Assembly (NCBI GenBank): GCA_016214855.1 | Contig: JACRMT010000012.1 | Location: forward strand, 1 to 64,000 | DNA: 64,000 bases | Source: Nitrospirota bacterium | GTDB taxonomy: Bacteria; Nitrospirota; Thermodesulfovibrionia; Thermodesulfovibrionales; UBA6898 | Direction: 5' to 3' | Shown here: positions 40,765 to 60,680 of the stretch, piece by piece | Layout of the letters: each line of letters opens with the position of its first letter | Position numbering within the stretch: the stretch's first letter is position 1 | Notes under the pieces: generated by a model | The model's input: only the letters and a program-made list of their open reading frames with translations | The model's database searches: none | Told to the model about the DNA's origin: nothing | Translations under genes and position numbers: made by a program

Positions 40765-40780
40765 TGCGAGAACCGTGCCA
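40765..40780 (-). promoter_or_regulatory. sigma-54 promoter of amt-glnB-amt
   Basis: On the minus strand TGGCACGGTTCTCGCA matches the TGGCACG-N4-TTGCW consensus except one base in the -12 element. Predicted start near 40754, with a leader of about 135 nt to the amt start codon. Confidence 0.8.
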
Positions 40781-40825
40781 ACACATAACTACTTGAAAAG
40801 ACATGTTATTTCCTAAATGTCATGA

Positions 40826-40857
40826 TTACAATATTGTAAGCTGCTACAAAGTTGTCA
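40826..40857. promoter_or_regulatory. paired palindromes / TTGTA-N6-TACAA dyad upstream of amt
   Basis: TTACAATATTGTAA (perfect palindrome) and CTACAAAGTTGTCA are 18 bp apart. Their facing halves form TTGTA-N6-TACAA at 40834-40849, centred 87.5 bp upstream of the predicted sigma-54 start. The layout is the same at 44503-44534. Probable enhancer sites for an unidentified activator. Confidence 0.65.
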
Positions 40858-40981: not shown

Positions 40982-42995
<2,014 letters not shown>

Positions 42996-43018: not shown

Positions 43019-44155
43019 CTACCAGGAATACATAACCGCCAAAGCGATCGTGTCCTGACTCTTCTTGTTTGTGAGATCATGGCGGCTGTCAAAGGTCTGC
43101 TTATCCGACCAGTCATGCCTGTATTCAGGTCTGATGATTATGCCGTTTGCAAGCCTGATCTCCGGGGTAATGGTGATCTCCTTGACGCTCTGTTTGATGC
43201 CGGTCCTTGCACCGTCACTGTCCTTGAAATATTCACCCCGGACTGCGAGGCTGTACCGACCGGTAAAATCATATTTTGCTATAGCGGCAAACCCATGCCA
43301 TTTAACGTCATCTGCAAGCGGCCCCATATCCTCTGTTGCATAGTCCGCATTCAGGATCAGGCTCAGATTCTTTACGGGCTTTATGGTTGCAACCCAGTCA
43401 AAGAGGAATCTGTTGTTTGAGCTGTTGTCGAGCTGCTCAGGACCATAGCAGGTGTTGAAATACATGGAGAGCTGCTCCATCGGCGCATAGCCGACGCTTA
43501 ATCCTACGGTCTTTCCCTTGTTGTTGTCGCTGGTATTGTCCCAGCCGTTGACAACATGAAGATTTGCGCTCAGGGCGTCCGTAAAGCTATACCCCACCAT
43601 GAGACCTGTGTGGGTGAAGGGTATGGCGTAGTTGAACAGGAGTGAACGCGAATAATTCGGATTGTCTTTTGCCTCTATCACCTCTGCGCCGAAATAGGTG
43701 GCATATTTACCAAACCGGAGCTTGAGCCCCTTGCCGACAGGCGCAAGATAGTCGATGTACGCCTCGGTAAGATCAAAGGCATCGCTCTTTGAAGGATCAT
43801 CGCCGTCATTGATGCCCAAGCCGCGCGAATGTATCCATTTTGCAGTCTCGCCGGCTGAAAGCTTCAATTTGAAGCCCACTCCGTTCATCGGCGCATCCTT
43901 GGCAAAGACGATCTGCGCAAGGTCAAGATTAAAGCTGTTTGCTTCATGATCAAAAACGCGGAGCCTGTTTTCTCCTGAATCAGGATTTCTGAAATTATAC
44001 GTGTACCCGCCCTGCAGATTGATGCTCAGACCCAAAGCCTTCTTGATCTCGTCTGCATTCAGACCAACAGGCTTTGCCTCTTCCGCAAAACTGCTGAATA
44101 CCATTGCAAATACAAAAATCAATGTGAACCACATGCTAAAAATAACCCTTTTCAT
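43019..44155 (-). CDS. outer-membrane beta-barrel porin
   Basis: A 378-residue outer-membrane protein: signal peptide (SSFAEE), alternating amphipathic strands throughout, Tyr/Phe/Trp girdle residues, and a terminal aromatic residue (AVMYSW) as needed for barrel assembly. Its style is that of the BBP2/OmpL-like porins. AGGAGGAG precedes the ATG. It sits between an orphan NifA-type HTH gene and amt-glnB on the same strand, so it is probably induced under nitrogen limitation to admit a nitrogen source through the outer membrane. The substrate is inference. Confidence 0.85.
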   Translation of the reverse strand: MKRVIFSMWFTLIFVFAMVFSSFAEEAKPVGLNADEIKKALGLSINLQGGYTYNFRNPDSGENRLRVFDHEANSFNLDLAQIVFAKDAPMNGVGFKLKLSAGETAKWIHSRGLGINDGDDPSKSDAFDLTEAYIDYLAPVGKGLKLRFGKYATYFGAEVIEAKDNPNYSRSLLFNYAIPFTHTGLMVGYSFTDALSANLHVVNGWDNTSDNNKGKTVGLSVGYAPMEQLSMYFNTCYGPEQLDNSSNNRFLFDWVATIKPVKNLSLILNADYATEDMGPLADDVKWHGFAAIAKYDFTGRYSLAVRGEYFKDSDGARTGIKQSVKEITITPEIRLANGIIIRPEYRHDWSDKQTFDSRHDLTNKKSQDTIALAVMYSW

Positions 44156-44187: not shown

Positions 44188-44427
44188 TTAAAGCGATTTC
44201 TTTTGCTCCTGACTGTCTTCATGCTCTTCTTCTGCTCCCTCGTTCCAACGCACCTCCTTTATTCTCAAGCCGTATTTGTGGATCTTATATCCGATCATCC
44301 TCTCGGTAATGCCAAGACTCTTTGCCGCACGAGCCATTACCCAGTTGCATTCCTTTAAAGCCTTTATGATCTCTTCTTTCTCAAGTTCTTCAATTCTGTT
44401 CTTAAGAGAAGTTCCTGCGTTATTCAT
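44188..44427 (-). CDS. stand-alone NifA-type Fis/HTH DNA-binding protein
   Basis: About 79 residues from the ATG at 44425-44427. The sequence EIIKALKECNWVMARAAKSL, then GITERMIGYKIHKYGL, is the C-terminal Fis-like DNA-binding domain of NifA-class activators. The GAF and AAA+ domains are absent and there is no room for them upstream (nifV ends the next 170 bp away). A charged Glu-rich tail follows. The frame stays open further upstream, but a sigma-54 promoter lies across it, giving a predicted start about 4 nt before this ATG. First gene of the porin-amt-glnB operon. It cannot activate sigma-54 itself; a competitor or partner role is inference. Confidence 0.75.
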   Translation of the reverse strand: MNNAGTSLKNRIEELEKEEIIKALKECNWVMARAAKSLGITERMIGYKIHKYGLRIKEVRWNEGAEEEHEDSQEQKKSL

Positions 44428-44441
44428 AATGCAGGTAACAT

Positions 44442-44457
44442 TGCCAAAACCATGCCA
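44442..44457 (-). promoter_or_regulatory. sigma-54 promoter of the HTH-porin-amt-glnB operon
   Basis: On the minus strand TGGCATGGTTTTGGCA has the GG and GC at the correct 10-bp spacing; the -12 element is TGGCA. Predicted start near 44431. Confidence 0.7.
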
Positions 44458-44502
44458 GATCAAAACTGTTTGATTTTTCATAATAATTTGCGTGCACATG
44501 GC

Positions 44503-44534
44503 CTACAATATTGTATTTTACTACAAAAATGTCT
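44503..44534. promoter_or_regulatory. paired palindromes / TTGTA-N6-TACAA dyad, porin-amt operon
   Basis: CTACAATATTGTAT and CTACAAAAATGTCT are 18 bp apart. The facing halves form TTGTA-N6-TACAA at 44511-44526, centred 87.5 bp upstream of the predicted sigma-54 start, the same position as upstream of the second amt gene. Confidence 0.65.
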
Positions 44535-44598: not shown

Positions 44599-45834
44599 TC
44601 AGGGAGAAACAGTGAGGACCCTCTCAGCAATATCCGGATAATTGGCAACAAAGACCAATTCATCGTCAGTCAGGGCCTTCTGCGTGTGAAGGTTGGCATA
44701 TTGAACCAGATCGAGAACCCGCCTGGCCTCCTGATCACTCTCGAACGATATGCCGAGCTTGTCGTATACATGTCTGAAGCCCTTGATGCCTCCATATTCA
44801 CCGGTCGTAATGACACGGCCTGTTTCAAGAAGTTCAGGCTCACCCCTGCCGACATCCTCAGGGTCGTAAAGCTCGTAATTCCTCCTGTCTTTCAGCGCTC
44901 CGTCCGCATGGATCCCTGACTCATGGGCAAAGGCGTTGGCTCCCACGCCCGGCTGGTTGATCGGAATCGGCAGGCCAAAGGCGTACGAGGCATATTTCGC
45001 GATCTTCCAGGACTTTCTGAGGTCCATCTGCCTGTCGCACTGTAACTTCCTGCTGAGCCCGTGAGAAAATTTCAGTGCAAGCATCGAGGATACCAGATCG
45101 CAGTTTCCGCACCGCTCTCCGTATCCGTTGAGCGTGGTATTTATGTAACAGTCTATGCCTGCCTCTGCAGCACCCAGAGCACCTGCCACCGAGACAGCCT
45201 CGGCCATGCCGAGGTCATTATGGCAATGCATTTCGATCGGGAATTGCGTTGCCTCTCCCAAAGCCCTGATTCGCTCATAGATGGTGATGGGGTCGTCTGC
45301 GCCAAGGGTATCGCAATAACGGAGGCGGTCCGCGCCTGCTTCCTTGCCGGCAAGCGCAAAATCGATCAGCCGCTGAAGATCGGTCCGGGAAGCATCCTCG
45401 GCATTGATGCCGACCGTCTCGGCGCCAAACTCCCTGGCAAGTCTGACTGCCCTGGTCATTGACTCAGCAATGTCAGACCATGCTGTCCTGCCCTGGAATT
45501 TACCGCTGATCATAATGTCAGAGGTAGAGACCGACAGGTTCAGGTGCCGCAGGTCCGGACAGTTCTGAAAGGCAAGTTCAACATCACCGGGTATTGCCCT
45601 GCACCAGCCTTCAAGACGGATACGCCTGAAGGCGCCTGCTTTTTCAAGCTGCAGATTGGCATTGATATAGTTTCTTTCGTGCCTGAGCGTAGGGAAGCCG
45701 ATCTCGCTCTGAAACACGCCCATCTCGTCAAGATAGAGGTTGATCATGGTCTTGGCAAGCTTCGGCAGCAGAATGCGCGAGGTCTGCACACCATCCCGGT
45801 TTGTGACATCAATAAAATATATCTCTCTGGTCAT
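44599..45834 (-). CDS. nifV: homocitrate synthase NifV
   Basis: NifV condenses acetyl-CoA and 2-oxoglutarate to homocitrate, the organic ligand of the FeMo cofactor. The protein is 411 residues from the ATG at 45832-45834; the longer frame would overlap modC. It is an HMGL-like TIM barrel: IDVTNRDGVQTSRI (metal-binding Asp and catalytic Arg variant), MHCHNDLGMA, GYGERCGNCDL and HESGIHADG. Isopropylmalate synthase is the nearest alternative, but the position after nifB-modABC supports NifV. The ribosome site is weak. A GERCGNCD motif is typical of this superfamily. Confidence 0.85.
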   Translation of the reverse strand: MTREIYFIDVTNRDGVQTSRILLPKLAKTMINLYLDEMGVFQSEIGFPTLRHERNYINANLQLEKAGAFRRIRLEGWCRAIPGDVELAFQNCPDLRHLNLSVSTSDIMISGKFQGRTAWSDIAESMTRAVRLAREFGAETVGINAEDASRTDLQRLIDFALAGKEAGADRLRYCDTLGADDPITIYERIRALGEATQFPIEMHCHNDLGMAEAVSVAGALGAAEAGIDCYINTTLNGYGERCGNCDLVSSMLALKFSHGLSRKLQCDRQMDLRKSWKIAKYASYAFGLPIPINQPGVGANAFAHESGIHADGALKDRRNYELYDPEDVGRGEPELLETGRVITTGEYGGIKGFRHVYDKLGISFESDQEARRVLDLVQYANLHTQKALTDDELVFVANYPDIAERVLTVSP

Positions 45835-47467: not shown

Positions 47468-48234
47468 ATCTTAAACCCGTATCTTCTCAGGATATCGCTG
47501 CCTTCCCTTGAAATGACTATGGAAATAAAATTCCGTGCTGCAGCCTCGTTCTTTGTCCCTTTTATTGCGGCTATCTCATATTTTACCGGTGAGTGGCTTG
47601 ATGCCGGAGCCTCTGCAATGACCTTCAGCTCCCTGTCTCTTACGTTGGCATCAGTGAGAAATACCATGCCGGCATCTGCTTCATTGCGTTCCACATAATC
47701 CATAACCTGTCGCACATTTTCAGCGTACACCAGTTTTGACTTAAGATCGTTCCAGAGCCCGAGGGTCCTCAGGGTCTCCTCAGCATACTTACCGGCCGGC
47801 ACTGTAGCCGGGTTGCCTATGGCGAGCCTGACTACATCACTCTTCTTCAGATCGCTGAATGAAGAGATCCTCACTGATGCGTTCTTCGCTGCAATAAGCA
47901 CGATCTTATTGCCGGAAAAATCAGCCCTGCTGGTTTCCAGAAGCAGACCTGCGGCCTTCAGCGCATCCATCTCCTTCGATGAAGCCGAAGCGAAGACATC
48001 TGCAGGCGCACCCGCCTCAATCTGCTTCTGGAGAAGGCCGGAGGCTGCAAAGTTGAAGACAACCTTTGAGCCAGGATGCTTCTTCTCATAAGACCTGCCG
48101 ATCTCCTCAAAGGGCGCCTTAAGACTGAGCGCTGCAGAGACCGTGATCTCTGTCCCTGCAGCAGCTTCTTCTGCAAAGAGGACTGCAAGCATGCAGCAGA
48201 GAAAAAATAAAAGCAGCCTCTCAAACCATTTCAC
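47437..48234 (-). CDS. modA: molybdate-binding protein ModA
   Basis: ModA is the periplasmic molybdate receptor. The 265-residue protein has a signal peptide (AEEAAAG), the opening ITVSAALSLKAPFEEIG, a central NFAASGLLQKQIEAGAPADVF and YAENVRQVMDYVERNEADAGMVFLTDA near the end, all diagnostic. The start is GTG with GAGGAATACT upstream and overlaps nifB by 14 bp. The last ten residues (MAPHPALSPR) derive from a C-rich palindromic repeat, so the original C-terminus has been replaced. Confidence 0.94.
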   Translation of the reverse strand: MKWFERLLLFFLCCMLAVLFAEEAAAGTEITVSAALSLKAPFEEIGRSYEKKHPGSKVVFNFAASGLLQKQIEAGAPADVFASASSKEMDALKAAGLLLETSRADFSGNKIVLIAAKNASVRISSFSDLKKSDVVRLAIGNPATVPAGKYAEETLRTLGLWNDLKSKLVYAENVRQVMDYVERNEADAGMVFLTDANVRDRELKVIAEAPASSHSPVKYEIAAIKGTKNEAAARNFISIVISREGSDILRRYGFKMAPHPALSPR

Positions 48235-49111
48235 AGTATTCCTCTCCTATGCGGGCATTCAGCACCTCAAGTTCCATGTCTTTATCTTCGCCGAGCACAC
48301 CGCAGGCGTCAGCGCGGCACTGCTTGCAATGGGTCATCTGCTCGATATGGGGAGCACAGTCACTCCGCATCTTCGCGATCATATCATTCGACGGCCTCTG
48401 CAGGGAGGCGAATTCAGCCTGAGGGATCAGCGGCATGATGTTATGGATGTCAGCCCCCTTCATTCCGGCGAACCAGGCGATCATCGGTATTTCGACATCG
48501 TTGATCCCGGGTATGTAGACGGTATTCACCTTCACCATAAACCCTGCATCGATGGCATTAATAAGACCTCTCTGCTGATTGATAACCATCTGTTCAGCAG
48601 CCTCCCTGCCCCGGAGCGTTCTTCCCCGATAGCTGACCCAGGAATAGACCTTCTCGGCTACCATATGGGTGAGGGCATTGATCGTGATCGTGATACTCCT
48701 GACGCCCACTCGCATGAGGTCTTCTATCCTGTCAGGCAGGCAGAGTCCGTTAGTCGAAACGCAGAGCGTCAGATCAGGAAACGCACGGTGAATGGACGCC
48801 ATGGTCTCAAAGGTCGAGTCATTGGCCAGAGGATCACCCGGGCCGGCTATGCCGACGACGGTCAGATTATCATTTCGGTCGAGCAGTGCCTCGACCCTCT
48901 CCAGGGCCTCATACGATTTCAGAACGCGGCTGGTTATGCCGGGCCGTGATTCGTTTGCACAGTCGTATTTACGAATACAATACCGGCACTGTATGTTGCA
49001 TGCTGGCGCAACCGGCAGATGTATCCTGCCGAACTTGTGATGCGCTTCCTTCGAAAAGCACGGATGGGTCTTCTTTATGTCTCTGCTCTTGAATAATGGC
49101 ATCCCTGTCAT
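48221..49111 (-). CDS. nifB: nitrogenase cofactor radical SAM protein NifB
   Basis: NifB builds the 8Fe-9S-C precursor (NifB-co) of the FeMo cofactor. The 296-residue protein has HPCFSKEAHHKFGRIHLPVA, the radical SAM motif CNIQCRYC, GIAGPGDPLAN and a C-terminal cluster motif HCKQCRADACG. It is the short form without the NifX-like domain; a separate NifX is at 53218-53613. The start has GAGAGGTGG. A near-perfect sigma-54 promoter and a NifA site lie upstream. It heads the nifB-modA-modB-modC-nifV operon and overlaps modA. Confidence 0.95.
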   Translation of the reverse strand: MTGMPLFKSRDIKKTHPCFSKEAHHKFGRIHLPVAPACNIQCRYCIRKYDCANESRPGITSRVLKSYEALERVEALLDRNDNLTVVGIAGPGDPLANDSTFETMASIHRAFPDLTLCVSTNGLCLPDRIEDLMRVGVRSITITINALTHMVAEKVYSWVSYRGRTLRGREAAEQMVINQQRGLINAIDAGFMVKVNTVYIPGINDVEIPMIAWFAGMKGADIHNIMPLIPQAEFASLQRPSNDMIAKMRSDCAPHIEQMTHCKQCRADACGVLGEDKDMELEVLNARIGEEYCEMV

Positions 49112-52185: not shown

Positions 52186-52376
52186 TTGATAAAGCGATCA
52201 GCTGTCAGCATTCAGCTTTCAGTTCAAACAAAACAAATCCTCGCCATGCGCTAATCATTTGTTTTGATGATAGTTGATTGCTCTTATCAGCCTTTCTAAT
52301 TGCTGACGGCTGATCGCTATTTACTTCTTTTGTCTCGCTGATTGCTAACAGCTGATAGCTGAATGCTTTTTTTACG
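52186..52376. repeat. GCTGATAGCTGA-type repeats between nifI2 and ferredoxin gene
   Basis: Several degenerate units (GATCAGCTGTCAGCATTCAG; GCTGATTGCTAACAGCTGATAG) fill the 199-bp gap. Same family as the units in carA, carB and nifEN. Confidence 0.65.
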
Positions 52377-52791
52377 CTATCGCCTCTCCGCCGGTTTCTG
52401 ATGTCCTGACCCTTATTGCATTTTCAATGGGCGATACAAAGATCTTGCCATCACCTGTCTTACCGGTCTGATTCAGCTTTATCAGTGACTTCACGATCTT
52501 GCCAACCAGGTCATCAGGCACCACCATGGTCAGCATCCTCTTGGGAACGAAAAGTGCGACCGTCGGGAGCGCATGCTCAAGGGCATAGGCCGCAGGTGTC
52601 GGTTTCAGCTTTGCGGGGGTGCAGAAGCTGTCCGGCAGGTCAGGGTCAAGGTCGTTGTTGCAGACCATTCCCCTCTGCTTGCCTCTGCCGTCAACGCTCT
52701 GGATAGAGAGAGAAGGAAAGCCGAGGTCCTCCAGCACCTTCTTGGTCTCCGGAAGCTTGTCTCTCCGAATGATGGCGGTGATCTCTTTCAT
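52372..52791 (-). CDS. nifI2: nitrogenase P-II-like regulator NifI2
   Basis: A 139-residue P-II paralogue that, with NifI1, binds nitrogenase and switches it off on ammonium. It has MKEITAIIRRDKLPETKKVL, an unusual long T-loop (GRGKQRGMVCNNDLDPDLPD and on) and the C-terminal [18 protein letters not shown]. No modifiable tyrosine is at the T-loop tip. It overlaps nifI1 by 4 bp. In most anaerobes nifI1-nifI2 lie between nifH and nifD; here they are downstream of nifX. Confidence 0.92.
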   Translation of the reverse strand: MKEITAIIRRDKLPETKKVLEDLGFPSLSIQSVDGRGKQRGMVCNNDLDPDLPDSFCTPAKLKPTPAAYALEHALPTVALFVPKRMLTMVVPDDLVGKIVKSLIKLNQTGKTGDGKIFVSPIENAIRVRTSETGGEAIA

Positions 52792-53105
52792 AGCACCGCC
52801 TCCCCGGTCCGAACTGTGTACGCAGTCTCAACAGGGCTTATGAAGATCTTGCCGTCACCGACAAAGCCAGTTCTGGATTTGTCCATCATGAGCTTGACCA
52901 CCTTGTCTACATCCGTGTCGTTGACGACCATCATGACCAGCATTTTTGGCAGCTCGTCATAATGTATCGGCCCTACCTGCAATCCCTTCTGCTTTCCTCT
53001 GCCGAATACCGGCATCTTGGTGAGCGACGGAAAGCCTGCCCCCTCCAGTGCCTGGACCACCTCCTGCTCTTTTTCCGGCCGTATAAACGCTCTGATCATC
53101 TTCAT
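52788..53105 (-). CDS. nifI1: nitrogenase P-II-like regulator NifI1
   Basis: A 105-residue P-II paralogue. It opens MKMIRAFIRPEKEQEVVQAL, has the NifI1-type T-loop PVFGRGKQKGLQVGPIHYDE, and ends VGDGKIFISPVETAYTVRTGE. The pair with NifI2 predicts rapid post-translational inhibition of nitrogenase by ammonium, relieved by 2-oxoglutarate. ATG has AGGAGG-type signal upstream (CCAAGGAGGAAG). It follows nifX by 112 bp of repeats. Confidence 0.92.
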   Translation of the reverse strand: MKMIRAFIRPEKEQEVVQALEGAGFPSLTKMPVFGRGKQKGLQVGPIHYDELPKMLVMMVVNDTDVDKVVKLMMDKSRTGFVGDGKIFISPVETAYTVRTGEAVL

Positions 53106-53226: not shown

Positions 53227-53613
53227 ATTCAACGCTTTTCTGAGCCATGGCGGCGGCGAACTTTTTATAGTCTCAGACAGTTTCAGTACAGACTCCTCAA
53301 TGCTCACCGGCTCTTTCACCTTCACCGGCATGATGCCCTTCCGGGCAAGACGCGCTGCGGAAGGTCCGCCGATCTCCGTCAGATATATGATCTTGCAATC
53401 TGATATCCGGTCTACCTTGTTCTCGACACGCTCGTCATGGATCTTGCCCATGCCCTTTGTCTCTTCAACTGCAGTGTCTCTGCCCTCAGAGAACCTTCGG
53501 ATCTCGACCAGGGAATGTCCGCTGCTATTGAGTTCATAAATGACAAACATGCCGGCCCTTCCGAAATGCTCGTTTACGCTTATCCCGTCTGTTGTCGCAA
53601 ATGCAACTTTCAT
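53218..53613 (-). CDS. nifX: FeMo-cofactor carrier NifX-like protein
   Basis: A 131-residue member of the NifX/NifB-C-terminal/NafY family that binds cofactor precursors. It has MKVAFATTDGISVNEHFGRAG, a central DRISDCKIIYLTEIGGPSAA and an RKGIMPVKV strand. The start overlaps the nifEN stop by 4 bp, so it is made with NifEN, the scaffold it serves. NifB here lacks this domain, so it is supplied as a separate protein. Confidence 0.9.
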   Translation of the reverse strand: MKVAFATTDGISVNEHFGRAGMFVIYELNSSGHSLVEIRRFSEGRDTAVEETKGMGKIHDERVENKVDRISDCKIIYLTEIGGPSAARLARKGIMPVKVKEPVSIEESVLKLSETIKSSPPPWLRKALNSD

Positions 53614-56312
53614 GAGTGCACCTCCTTAGCAAATAATGTTGCTGCTTCCTGTATCAGGGACTGAGTCCCGCGATATCCTATAGTGATCCTGTTGGTATTG
53701 CCAAAGACCTTGTACACAGGGAAGCCCGTCTGGAGCAGTGAAGTTCCCAATCGCTTCGCAGTCTCTTCTGCATGGGAGTTCGATATGATCAGATCAAACT
53801 CCCCATTAATAGAAAAAAGGTCTCCGACTGCGATACTGTCTGCCTGAATCTTTCCTGCAGCAGCAGAGGACTGAGGCACTACTGCAAGAGAAATATCTGC
53901 TGCCATCTCTATGACCCATTTCGAGGTCTGGAGCGCATGATCAGGCTCAAGTGCAATGCATATCCGTTTTGAAGCGAAGAAGGCATGTGCGTCTCTCATG
54001 CTGTCTGAAAGGATACGCCGCTGCCTTTCATATTGCGTTGGAACCGGTCTTCCGGCAAGCATGCCGAGCATCTCCATGAATCGGGAAGTGTCCTCCAGGC
54101 CCGCAAGACTGTCAAACACCCTGTACTCGACGCCGAACCGTTCTTTCAAGGCTTGTGCTGCAGGCTCCAGGCTCATGCCGATTGCTATGGTAAATTCTGA
54201 AGAGCCCATTGCTGCGATCTCCTGCAGCGTGGTGCCTCCTGATGCAAGAGGCGAGATGCCCTGCCTGCTTCCGTCAAGACAGGAGAGGTCCGGCAGAATA
54301 ATCGGTCTCAGGCCGAATGCCTCTGCCATCTCCCGCAGTTCAAGAAAATCGGCAGGAGTGAGATGAGATCCGGCAAGGATATTGACCTGTCCCTTGACGC
54401 ACAGAGCATGAGGAAATGCGCCTGGGGCAGAGGCAAGGCCCACAAGGGCCTCAACTGCCTTTGTATAACCTGTTTCGAGCCCGCCCTCATAGTCCGGTGT
54501 CGGTATATGCAGGACCGTTGACGCTGAACCGTCAACTGTCAACGTCCTTATTACGGCTGCGATATCATCGCCTTTCACCTCGGTCAGGCCTGATGTCAGC
54601 ACGCCGATCATATCAGGACTGTTCTTCTCAATGAATCCCCCGACTGTCTTTGACAGTGCCTCATCGCTGCCCATCACCACATCCTCAGCAAAGAGCTTGG
54701 TCCCTGCAAGGGCTATCGGCTCTCTGAAATGCTTTGTGAGGAGCACCTTGCCGAGAAAGGTGCAGCCCTGTGCCCCGTGTATAACCGGCAGCGCATTGTC
54801 TATGCCCTGCAATGCCATGGCCGCGCCGATCGACGCTGAATGCTTCAGGGGATTGATGAGGCAGCTTTCAGCGGTCAGCTTTAGGCTTTCAGCTTTTTCT
54901 CCATCATCTGTATCTGATTTATTTTCTTGTCTGCAAGCTGATCGCTGATCGCTGAATGCCGGCTGTCTGCTGTAAAACCTGATGCTGTTGCTGATCTGCT
55001 CTGCGATATTGACCAGCCCGTCATATCCTGCATACGCGACATGCCGCTCCTGGTTAACATCGATAAAAGGGTATCCTTCCTTGATCGCGAGATACTGGTT
55101 TCTTCCTCCTGCCACAAGAATGTCGGCGCCCCGGTCTCTCAGCAGCTTCTTCAGATTTTTCGGCGTTACGTCTTCAACAAGCAGAGCATCATTGCCAAGG
55201 ATCTGCTTCATCTTTTCTTCGTCCTCGGCAGTGCTCTTCTTTGTTCCTACAGCAACAATCTCTATGCCAAGGTCCATAAGTGCTGATATGAACGACCAGC
55301 TCTTCACCCCGCCCGTATAGAGCACAGCTTTTTTGCCGCGCAGATCTTCATAAGGCCTGAGCTTTTCATGCAGCTTCTGCTCTTCAACAGCAATGACCTC
55401 TTCAATCCTATCCGGCAGTTGTGGGCTGACAGCTGACAGCTGATCGCTGATCGCTCTTAGTGCCTTCGCCATTTCGGTTCTGCCGAAGAACGAAACCTCC
55501 AGATAGGGAATACCGTATTTCTGCTCCATGCCTTTGGCAATGTTGATCAGAGCCCTGCTGCATACAACCACATTCAGCTTTGCCTGGTGAGCCCGGGTGA
55601 TCTCCTCAAAGGTCGCATTCCCGGTCATACGGGACAATATCGTAATTCCGGCACGCTTCAGAACAGGTTCGATCAGCCAGAGGTCACCAGCAATGTTATA
55701 TTCTCCGATCAGGTTGATACTGTTTATGAGACCTGCATCGACATCGCCTTCCTGCCCCACTTTGGCAAAGGGGGGTGAGGGGGGATTTTCTGGCCTTTCA
55801 CCTGTTCCGATGACATGCTCAAGCAGCACTTCACCGGCAATGCGGTTACCAAGGTTCTTGGGTCCGACAAATCCTGGCGCACTCACCGGTATGACCCTGA
55901 TGCCGAGTTCTTCCTCAGCCTTTTTGCAGACGGCCACAACGTCTTCTCCGATCAGTCCGGACACGCAGGTTGCATAGACGAATATCGCCTTCGGTTTTAC
56001 GACATCTGCAGTCTTCAATATCCCACGATAGAGCTTCTCTTCCGAGCCATAGACAATGTCCAGCTCGGTCATATCTGTGGTGAAGCCCATTTTATGGAGG
56101 CTGCCCTGTGAAGAGCGTGTGCCCCTGCCTTCCCAGGAATTCCCGCAACAGGCGATGGGGCCGTGGACAAGATGGGCCGTGTCCGCAATGGGCTGAAGCA
56201 CGATCATTGCACCGTCAAAGGCACAGGACTCGCCGCCACGTGAACGGCAGACCTTGTCGCTCTTCCCTGTGCTGCATCCGTGCTCTGTTAATTTATCTAT
56301 GTTCGTGATCAT
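53610..56312 (-). CDS. nifEN: fused FeMo-cofactor scaffold NifE-NifN
   Basis: NifE and NifN normally form a heterotetramer that matures NifB-co to the FeMo cofactor. Here one 900-residue frame contains both: NifE about 1-450 (CSTGKSDKVCRSRGG, GPIACCGNSWEGR, YATCVSGLIGED, GEYNIAGD) and NifN about 484-900 (LPVIHGAQGCTFLGKVLL, VLTSGLTEVKGDDI, TVFGNTNR-type end). The joining linker (about 449-483) and two more segments (176-191 NPPSPPFAKVGQEGDV; 285-298 AISDQLSAVSPQLP) are translated repeats. The reading frame is open throughout. It follows nifK and overlaps nifX. Confidence 0.92.
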   Translation of the reverse strand: MITNIDKLTEHGCSTGKSDKVCRSRGGESCAFDGAMIVLQPIADTAHLVHGPIACCGNSWEGRGTRSSQGSLHKMGFTTDMTELDIVYGSEEKLYRGILKTADVVKPKAIFVYATCVSGLIGEDVVAVCKKAEEELGIRVIPVSAPGFVGPKNLGNRIAGEVLLEHVIGTGERPENPPSPPFAKVGQEGDVDAGLINSINLIGEYNIAGDLWLIEPVLKRAGITILSRMTGNATFEEITRAHQAKLNVVVCSRALINIAKGMEQKYGIPYLEVSFFGRTEMAKALRAISDQLSAVSPQLPDRIEEVIAVEEQKLHEKLRPYEDLRGKKAVLYTGGVKSWSFISALMDLGIEIVAVGTKKSTAEDEEKMKQILGNDALLVEDVTPKNLKKLLRDRGADILVAGGRNQYLAIKEGYPFIDVNQERHVAYAGYDGLVNIAEQISNSIRFYSRQPAFSDQRSACRQENKSDTDDGEKAESLKLTAESCLINPLKHSASIGAAMALQGIDNALPVIHGAQGCTFLGKVLLTKHFREPIALAGTKLFAEDVVMGSDEALSKTVGGFIEKNSPDMIGVLTSGLTEVKGDDIAAVIRTLTVDGSASTVLHIPTPDYEGGLETGYTKAVEALVGLASAPGAFPHALCVKGQVNILAGSHLTPADFLELREMAEAFGLRPIILPDLSCLDGSRQGISPLASGGTTLQEIAAMGSSEFTIAIGMSLEPAAQALKERFGVEYRVFDSLAGLEDTSRFMEMLGMLAGRPVPTQYERQRRILSDSMRDAHAFFASKRICIALEPDHALQTSKWVIEMAADISLAVVPQSSAAAGKIQADSIAVGDLFSINGEFDLIISNSHAEETAKRLGTSLLQTGFPVYKVFGNTNRITIGYRGTQSLIQEAATLFAKEVHS
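54866..54967. repeat. GCTTTCAGCGGTCAGC-type repeat, NifE-NifN junction
   Basis: Degenerate units GCGGTCAGCTTTAGGCTTTC and GCTGATCGCTGATCGCTGAA are read in frame at the joint of the NifE and NifN halves (about residues 449-483). Confidence 0.7.
55423..55460. repeat. GCTGACAGCTGATCGCTGA-type repeat inside nifE half
   Basis: Tandem GCTGACAGCTGACAGCTGAT-like units are read in frame as AISDQLSAVSPQL. Confidence 0.75.
55749..55796. repeat. palindromic CCCCACTTTGGCAAAGGGGGG repeat inside nifE half
   Basis: A copy of the C-rich palindromic family (hairpin around TTTGGCAAAG, outer GGGGGATTT) is read in frame as NPPSPPFAKVGQEGDV. Confidence 0.8.
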
Positions 56313-59542: not shown

Positions 59543-60562
<1,020 letters not shown>

Positions 60563-60596
60563 TCAATACGTCCCTGTCATTACTTGAAGACATTTA

Positions 60597-60612
60597 TGTA
60601 GGCTAATAAACA
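60597..60612. promoter_or_regulatory. NifA upstream activator site (TGT-N10-ACA) of nifH
   Basis: On the minus strand TGTTTATTAGCCTACA fits TGT-N10-ACA exactly, centred about 97.5 bp upstream of the predicted start, the usual NifA distance. It also lies ahead of the divergent flavoprotein gene at 60681. Confidence 0.8.
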
Positions 60613-60680
60613 ATTCTGTTGTTTGCAAAATACCCGGCGTCTGCGGATAGAAGAGCATGCTTATGTGGTATAGTTTCCCT

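Follow-up and report, generated by a model that had tools for sequence, protein, structure and literature searches.

A small gene for a stand-alone NifA-type domain

The 64,000-nucleotide stretch of Nitrospirota DNA analysed here (the window) carries, at the head of an ammonium-transport operon, a small gene for a stand-alone NifA-type helix-turn-helix (HTH) protein, which we name SHORT. The locus raises the question of whether SHORT is a fragment of nifA or a regulator in its own right and, if the latter, what it may do at the operon that it heads. An earlier note on this DNA took it for a minimal decoy that could occupy NifA or amt sites without activating them, giving negative feedback on nitrogen genes. 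The genes concerned are as follows.

44188..44427, minus strand: SHORT, stand-alone NifA-type HTH_8 protein, first gene of the operon, 79 aa (HTH_8, E-value 1.1e-12)
43019..44155, minus strand: outer-membrane porin (BBP2), second gene of the operon (PF07642, 5.6e-83)
41331..42995, minus strand: ammonium transporter Amt1 (PF00909, 4.6e-112)
40982..41410, minus strand: PII protein, GlnK/GlnB (PF00543, 2.8e-32)

The SHORT reading frame runs from an ATG at 44427 to a stop at 44188. Its only matches in the Pfam scan were HTH_8 (PF02954; 47.9 bits against a gathering threshold of 22) and HTH_50, with HTH_8 the sole domain above cut-off. The top NCBIfam match was to NifA (TIGR01817, E-value 1.1e-9), but it was confined to the last 45 of the 534 model positions (489-533), and its 37.7 bits compare with a full-protein cut-off of 528.85, so that SHORT, which corresponds to the HTH part alone, is not itself a NifA. 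Neither a GAF nor an AAA+ domain was found by the Pfam and NCBIfam scans, and SHORT is absent from the genome's list of proteins with the Sigma54_activat AAA+ domain (PF00158), i.e., it does not class as an enhancer-binding protein. With nifV ending at 44599, only about 170 bp lie 5′ of the gene. Hence, the earlier description of SHORT as an orphan NifA-type HTH, with no space upstream for the missing domains, was borne out. The ATG at 44427 was taken as the start because the start motif, M-x-x-x-G-[TA]-S-L-K, is common to the relatives within the genus; an ATG at 44499 was rejected, since it precedes the promoter and is therefore outside the transcript.

In the AlphaFold model SHORT has the three helices (residues 4-26, 31-38 and 42-52) of a Fis/NtrC-type fold, with a core (residues ~11-50) at a pLDDT of about 94, above 90, and a disordered tail. 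A Foldseek search with this model gave a probability of 1.00 to 2M8G, 4L5E and 4FTH, with rmsd values of 0.7-1.1 and E-values that, for so short a chain, reached only 0.005-0.24; by sequence, 2M8G was matched at 2e-13 and 4L5E at 1.1e-6. The nearest solved structures were DNA-binding domains of sigma-54 activators first and Fis after. By both fold and sequence these were the domains of NtrC1 and NtrC4 and 2M8G, which, unlike SHORT, are parts of full activators and not separate genes. Fis of Escherichia coli and its relatives, an abundant nucleoid-associated homodimer that bends DNA at many sites, evolved out of NtrC's DNA-binding domain (Morett and Bork 1998, as cited in PMC7962754 and PMC7166090). 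It resembles SHORT in structure, in being small and stand-alone, and in having such a domain of a sigma-54 activator as its source. SHORT differs from it in its source, NifA, in its linkage to amt operons, and in showing no sign of the gene context of a nucleoid protein. NinH of phage lambda is also a small stand-alone Fis-like HTH protein, a DNA binder and homodimer (PMC7166090), but it is a phage protein from an unrelated context. In the part of the literature covered, no published description of the SHORT gene, or of the tandem ACA-N4-TGT operator described below, was found.

Conservation and descent of SHORT

Homologues were sought, as stand-alone frames mostly of 55-125 aa, in the contigs of the same genome and in 60 relatives. 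After removal of identical proteins, the stand-alone homologues compared numbered 74, from 66 genomes or records, and a phylum-wide profile search located copies elsewhere in the class, in further families, as well as in other classes (e.g., f23, f28 and f34). Among close relatives, and where computable, dN/dS (NG86) was 0.02-0.16, values that are rough because synonymous sites were saturated in several pairs; 22 of the 29 changes between SHORT and the copy in G003 are at third codon positions. By these measures the reading frames of the relatives are intact and under purifying selection, and SHORT is a real gene, conserved across much of the Nitrospirota. The earlier note had named a nifA broken in assembly, or a frame decayed in relatives, as what could overturn its view. 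Neither was found, and a separate full-length NifA is encoded in the same genome (G000:C2:200068-201561; 576 bits, above the cut-off). A pseudogene, a truncated or decayed nifA or an assembly break, any of which would fit a NifA represented by its C-terminal 45 positions alone, was rejected as having practically no chance of being right in view of that full-length NifA, the intact homologues, the low dN/dS, the third-position changes, and a start and promoter of SHORT's own.

The full-length protein closest to SHORT in its own genome is NifA. In an HTH tree, built on about 48 columns, the small proteins form one clade (support 0.82) nested among NifA HTHs, and the deeper node that joins them with NifA is weak (support 0.13). 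Multiple copies (2-3), in tandem or each heading an amt/porin operon, were seen at L187 (G052), L175/L176 (G030) and L298 (G311).

Gene order and the link to ammonium transport

The porin gene begins 32 bp after SHORT and carries its own ribosome-binding site (AGGAGGAG), and the Amt1 and PII genes are next in line, which agrees with the earlier placing of SHORT at the head of a porin-amt operon. The same short gene was also found beside amt operons in relatives, as the note had suggested looking for: porin, amt or PII genes lie downstream of 69 of the 71 assessable homologues, including those from other orders and classes of Nitrospirota. A script counted 67 cases (with one of these genes as the first or second next gene), 4 exceptions, and 3 genes at the end of a contig. 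Among the exceptions, G009 and the second copy in G019 were recounted, since a porin does follow, with a called frame that overlaps SHORT; the homologues outside the pattern are those of G172, located after an amt gene, and G289.

The porin type varies by lineage (BBP2; a Gcw_chp-like barrel that scores under its Pfam cut-off; or a third type, which Pfam does not match), and some genomes have no porin, SHORT then lying directly 5′ of amt. Therefore, the constant partner of SHORT is amt. Where a genome has more than one such operon, each often has its own copy of SHORT (G015, G019, G020 and G030), and glutamine synthetase is often encoded farther downstream. Among 61 genomes, nifH was present in 33 and NifA in 50, and SHORT and NifA occurred with nifH below the threshold used in G019, G022, G030, G031, G034, G036, G043, G044, G048, G052 and G059. 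Judged by gene content, SHORT tracks amt and NifA rather than nitrogenase. With at least 11 SHORT genomes lacking nifH, the feedback on nitrogen genes that had been proposed is too broad, and a scope limited to amt is better supported.

Promoter and operator of SHORT

Four elements were located upstream of the gene.

44442..44457, minus strand: sigma-54 -24/-12 promoter, TGGCATGGTTTTGGCA, of the form TGGCAYG-N-TTYTNGC
44463..44475, minus strand: IHF-like site, AATCAAACAGTTT, in the interval between operator and promoter, with 8 of the 9 specified positions of WATCAA-N4-TTR
44505..44514, minus strand: proximal operator palindrome, ACAATATTGT, an ACA-N4-TGT unit
44523..44532, minus strand: distal operator palindrome, ACATTTTTGT, ACA-N4-TGT; with the proximal one, a 12/12 operator match

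The promoter form is retained 5′ of the SHORT homologues (44 aligned promoters), and no obvious second conserved motif was seen in the aligned promoters. With the promoter GC at 44444-44443, we infer that transcription begins near 44431, some 4 nt ahead of the ATG. In the genus of the window translation of SHORT may be almost leaderless (44431-44427); a ribosome-binding site is present in other families.

The conserved operator units are two ACA-N4-TGT palindromes, with a consensus near CTACAAAATTGTAG, situated 17-20 bp apart. The proximal ACA lies 55-57 nt 5′ of TGGCA in 43/43 homologous promoters analysed, and the IHF-like site has a fixed place in most of 43. The operator was perfect (12/12) at 38 of the 53 SHORT homologues and in 0 of 1060 shuffles under a first-order Markov model (best, 11); since the operator and IHF consensus were picked after viewing the sequences, these figures describe conservation and are no independent test. 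The earlier note had given SHORT its own sigma-54 promoter and a TTGTA-N6-TACAA dyad. The promoter stands and the dyad is present (44526-44511), but it is the stretch that spans the gap between both palindromes and not the operator unit. As a private site of SHORT the dyad was rejected, because amt promoters in genomes lacking SHORT have it too. Across the 3.3 Mb of the genome, only three promoters combine the strict operator with TGGCA, those of SHORT, amt2 and nifH (a fourth match listed is the 44442-44532 site counted twice), and the strict tandem operator occurs in two places only, both amt promoters.

Two classes of site and a candidate activator

The two further promoters with the operator are the following.

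40765..40855, minus strand: amt-type operator and sigma-54 promoter of amt2, with no SHORT gene
60518..60619, minus strand: nif-type operator (palindrome spacing, 20 bp) and sigma-54 promoter of nifH

They represent two architectures: at amt the spacing is 17-20 bp and an IHF-like site is fixed, whereas at nifH the spacing is 20 bp and the operator lies about 10 bp, or one turn, farther out. The sites that had been taken as one class thus separate into 44511 and 40834, which are amt-type with N8 between the palindromes, and 60597 (nifH) and 49229 (nifB), which are nif-type with N10 and farther from the -24 box. The spacer at SHORT (N8; N7-N10, mostly 8-9, in homologues) differs from that of the known NifA site, TGT-N10-ACA (PMC4999443), whereas nifH promoters of the same genomes have N10 in 23/30 and are without the fixed IHF-like site. 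IHF between an enhancer and an RpoN promoter is common (PMC7962754).

The same operator is found at amt genes without SHORT in G006, G028, G035, G040, G047, G051, G053, G054, G055, G056 and G060. Hence, another protein must act there and SHORT is not needed for activation, nor, lacking AAA+, can it open a sigma-54 promoter. The natural candidate, and probably the activator at the amt operator, is NifA, on a correlation that is not proof: NifA is nearly universal in the genomes examined, and the NifA-less G027 and G041 have neither the operator nor SHORT. G046, initially scored as NifA-less, has a NifA beside amt. NifA was not detected in the fragmented assemblies of G012, with an 11/12 operator, and of G013 and G016, in which SHORT is present. 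No operator was found at nifA itself in its own genome, the best match, 8/12, being at chance level.

In a family without SHORT (G028, G040, G051 and G060) the amt promoters L221, L242, L245, L249 and L255 keep the tandem palindromes; their -12 element is poor (ATGAT, TTGAT or GTGAT, not TTGCA). A split activator, made of SHORT and an AAA+ partner without a DNA-binding domain, was rejected, since no such partner was found in the genome. The sole activator without an HTH_8 match (G000:C4:203566-204378, locus L067) is a sigma-54 activator whose sequence ends in an HTH-like stretch.

A possible self-damping of the amt operon

Like the C-terminal domain of NifA (TIGR01817), SHORT has the HTH_8 fold and a T-x-R-x-I-G-Y-K recognition helix; unlike NifA it has no GAF, AAA+ or linker, E and M replace P and Q, and the charges of the long helix are inverted. 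The recognition helix reads T-E-R-M in SHORT (E in 52/53, M in 50/53) and T-P-R-Q in NifA (Q in 36/36, P in 30/36), at positions that presumably align with Arg85 and Thr87 of Fis. Since both changes, P to E and Q to M, are fixed in the subfamily, the specificity may have shifted, which argues against a simple decoy. In the long helix, position -14 is acidic in 48/53 SHORT proteins and basic in 30/36 NifA, position -11 basic in 23/53 and acidic in 29/36, and position -7 acidic in 47/53 and basic in 25/36.

The sequence comparisons support the existence and conservation of SHORT, the order of the genes around it, and the operator and promoter; from these we infer NifA as the activator, whereas operator binding by the SHORT protein and its negative sign are hypothetical. 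In the scheme that we prefer, SHORT would be a regulator derived from the Fis-like C-terminus of NifA that competes for the operator and so exerts negative feedback locally. When nitrogen is limiting, NifA bound to the tandem ACA-N4-TGT operator, and looped through an IHF-like bend, would activate the sigma-54 promoter. The SHORT protein would be made first and, without AAA+, would be unable to activate; by occupying the same class of operator it would lower NifA occupancy, so that the operon damps itself (negative autoregulation), and it might also act at the second amt operon. Self-damping appears the most likely role because SHORT is the first gene behind a parent-type operator and is dispensable for the existence of that operator, and a modulator is favoured because SHORT is not needed for activation. 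We nevertheless hold the chance of such feedback at slightly below even, because the recognition helix has changed and isolated NifA domains bind weakly: that of the proteobacterial G. diazotrophicus NifA is monomeric in solution and binds its site with a Kd of about 20 uM (PMC10590331).

SHORT could instead serve as an accessory activator or have an architectural role, bending or pre-marking the amt operator as a Fis-like dimer and thereby aiding the loading of NifA. The two palindromes could seat two proteins, the geometry is strictly fixed with an IHF-like site, and the fold is Fis-like; this role is unlikely all the same, given the identical operators and amt operons without SHORT in other genomes and, in the same genome, an amt2 that has the operator without a SHORT of its own (action in trans being possible). 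The charges inverted relative to NifA at the three long-helix positions could mean that the target of SHORT is NifA itself, the long helix of SHORT pairing with the NifA DNA-binding domain into mixed dimers that bind poorly or differently. This we consider improbable, because these charges equally fit salt bridges within the helix, or pairing apart from NifA, and the isolated G. diazotrophicus domain is not dimeric (PMC10590331). It is also rather doubtful that SHORT has another DNA specificity and other target genes, with the amt operon merely providing nitrogen-dependent expression: the two subfamily-fixed recognition-helix positions are conserved across families, as this would predict, but the near-invariant amt linkage and the lack of an obvious second promoter motif favour a local role.

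Meaning for the Nitrospirota

Extended to much of the phylum, the self-damping scheme would give each main ammonium-transport operon its own feedback regulator, split from NifA and with its own recognition helix, and an undescribed tandem ACA-N4-TGT sigma-54 operator, a tentative generalization that we think has rather less than an even chance. If true, a Fis-like protein would have arisen from an enhancer-binding protein for a second time, now as an operon-specific one, and in bacteria whose ammonium uptake is run by NifA even where nitrogenase is absent. As a regulator gene SHORT is ancient and conserved, and annotation would overlook it as a short HTH protein. It offers a testable case of how an activator, stripped of its engine, can go on as a separate regulator at the same promoter. 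NifA and the operator are also present in genomes that lack nifH, and this distribution indicates that NifA in the Nitrospirota is a general ammonium-uptake regulator and not a nitrogenase-only switch, and the sharp operator motif is now usable for mapping the NifA ammonium-uptake regulon.

Neighbouring nif genes

The nif genes of the window show three further features, all on the minus strand. A single 900-aa protein is a fusion of NifE and NifN (53610-56312). Two PII-like genes (52372-53105), flanked by the nifEN fusion and the gene of the nif ferredoxin, would be nifI1 and nifI2 by their position and pairing. NifB (48221-49111) has 296 aa and matches positions 10-285 of the 441-position model, without the C-terminal NifX-like part.
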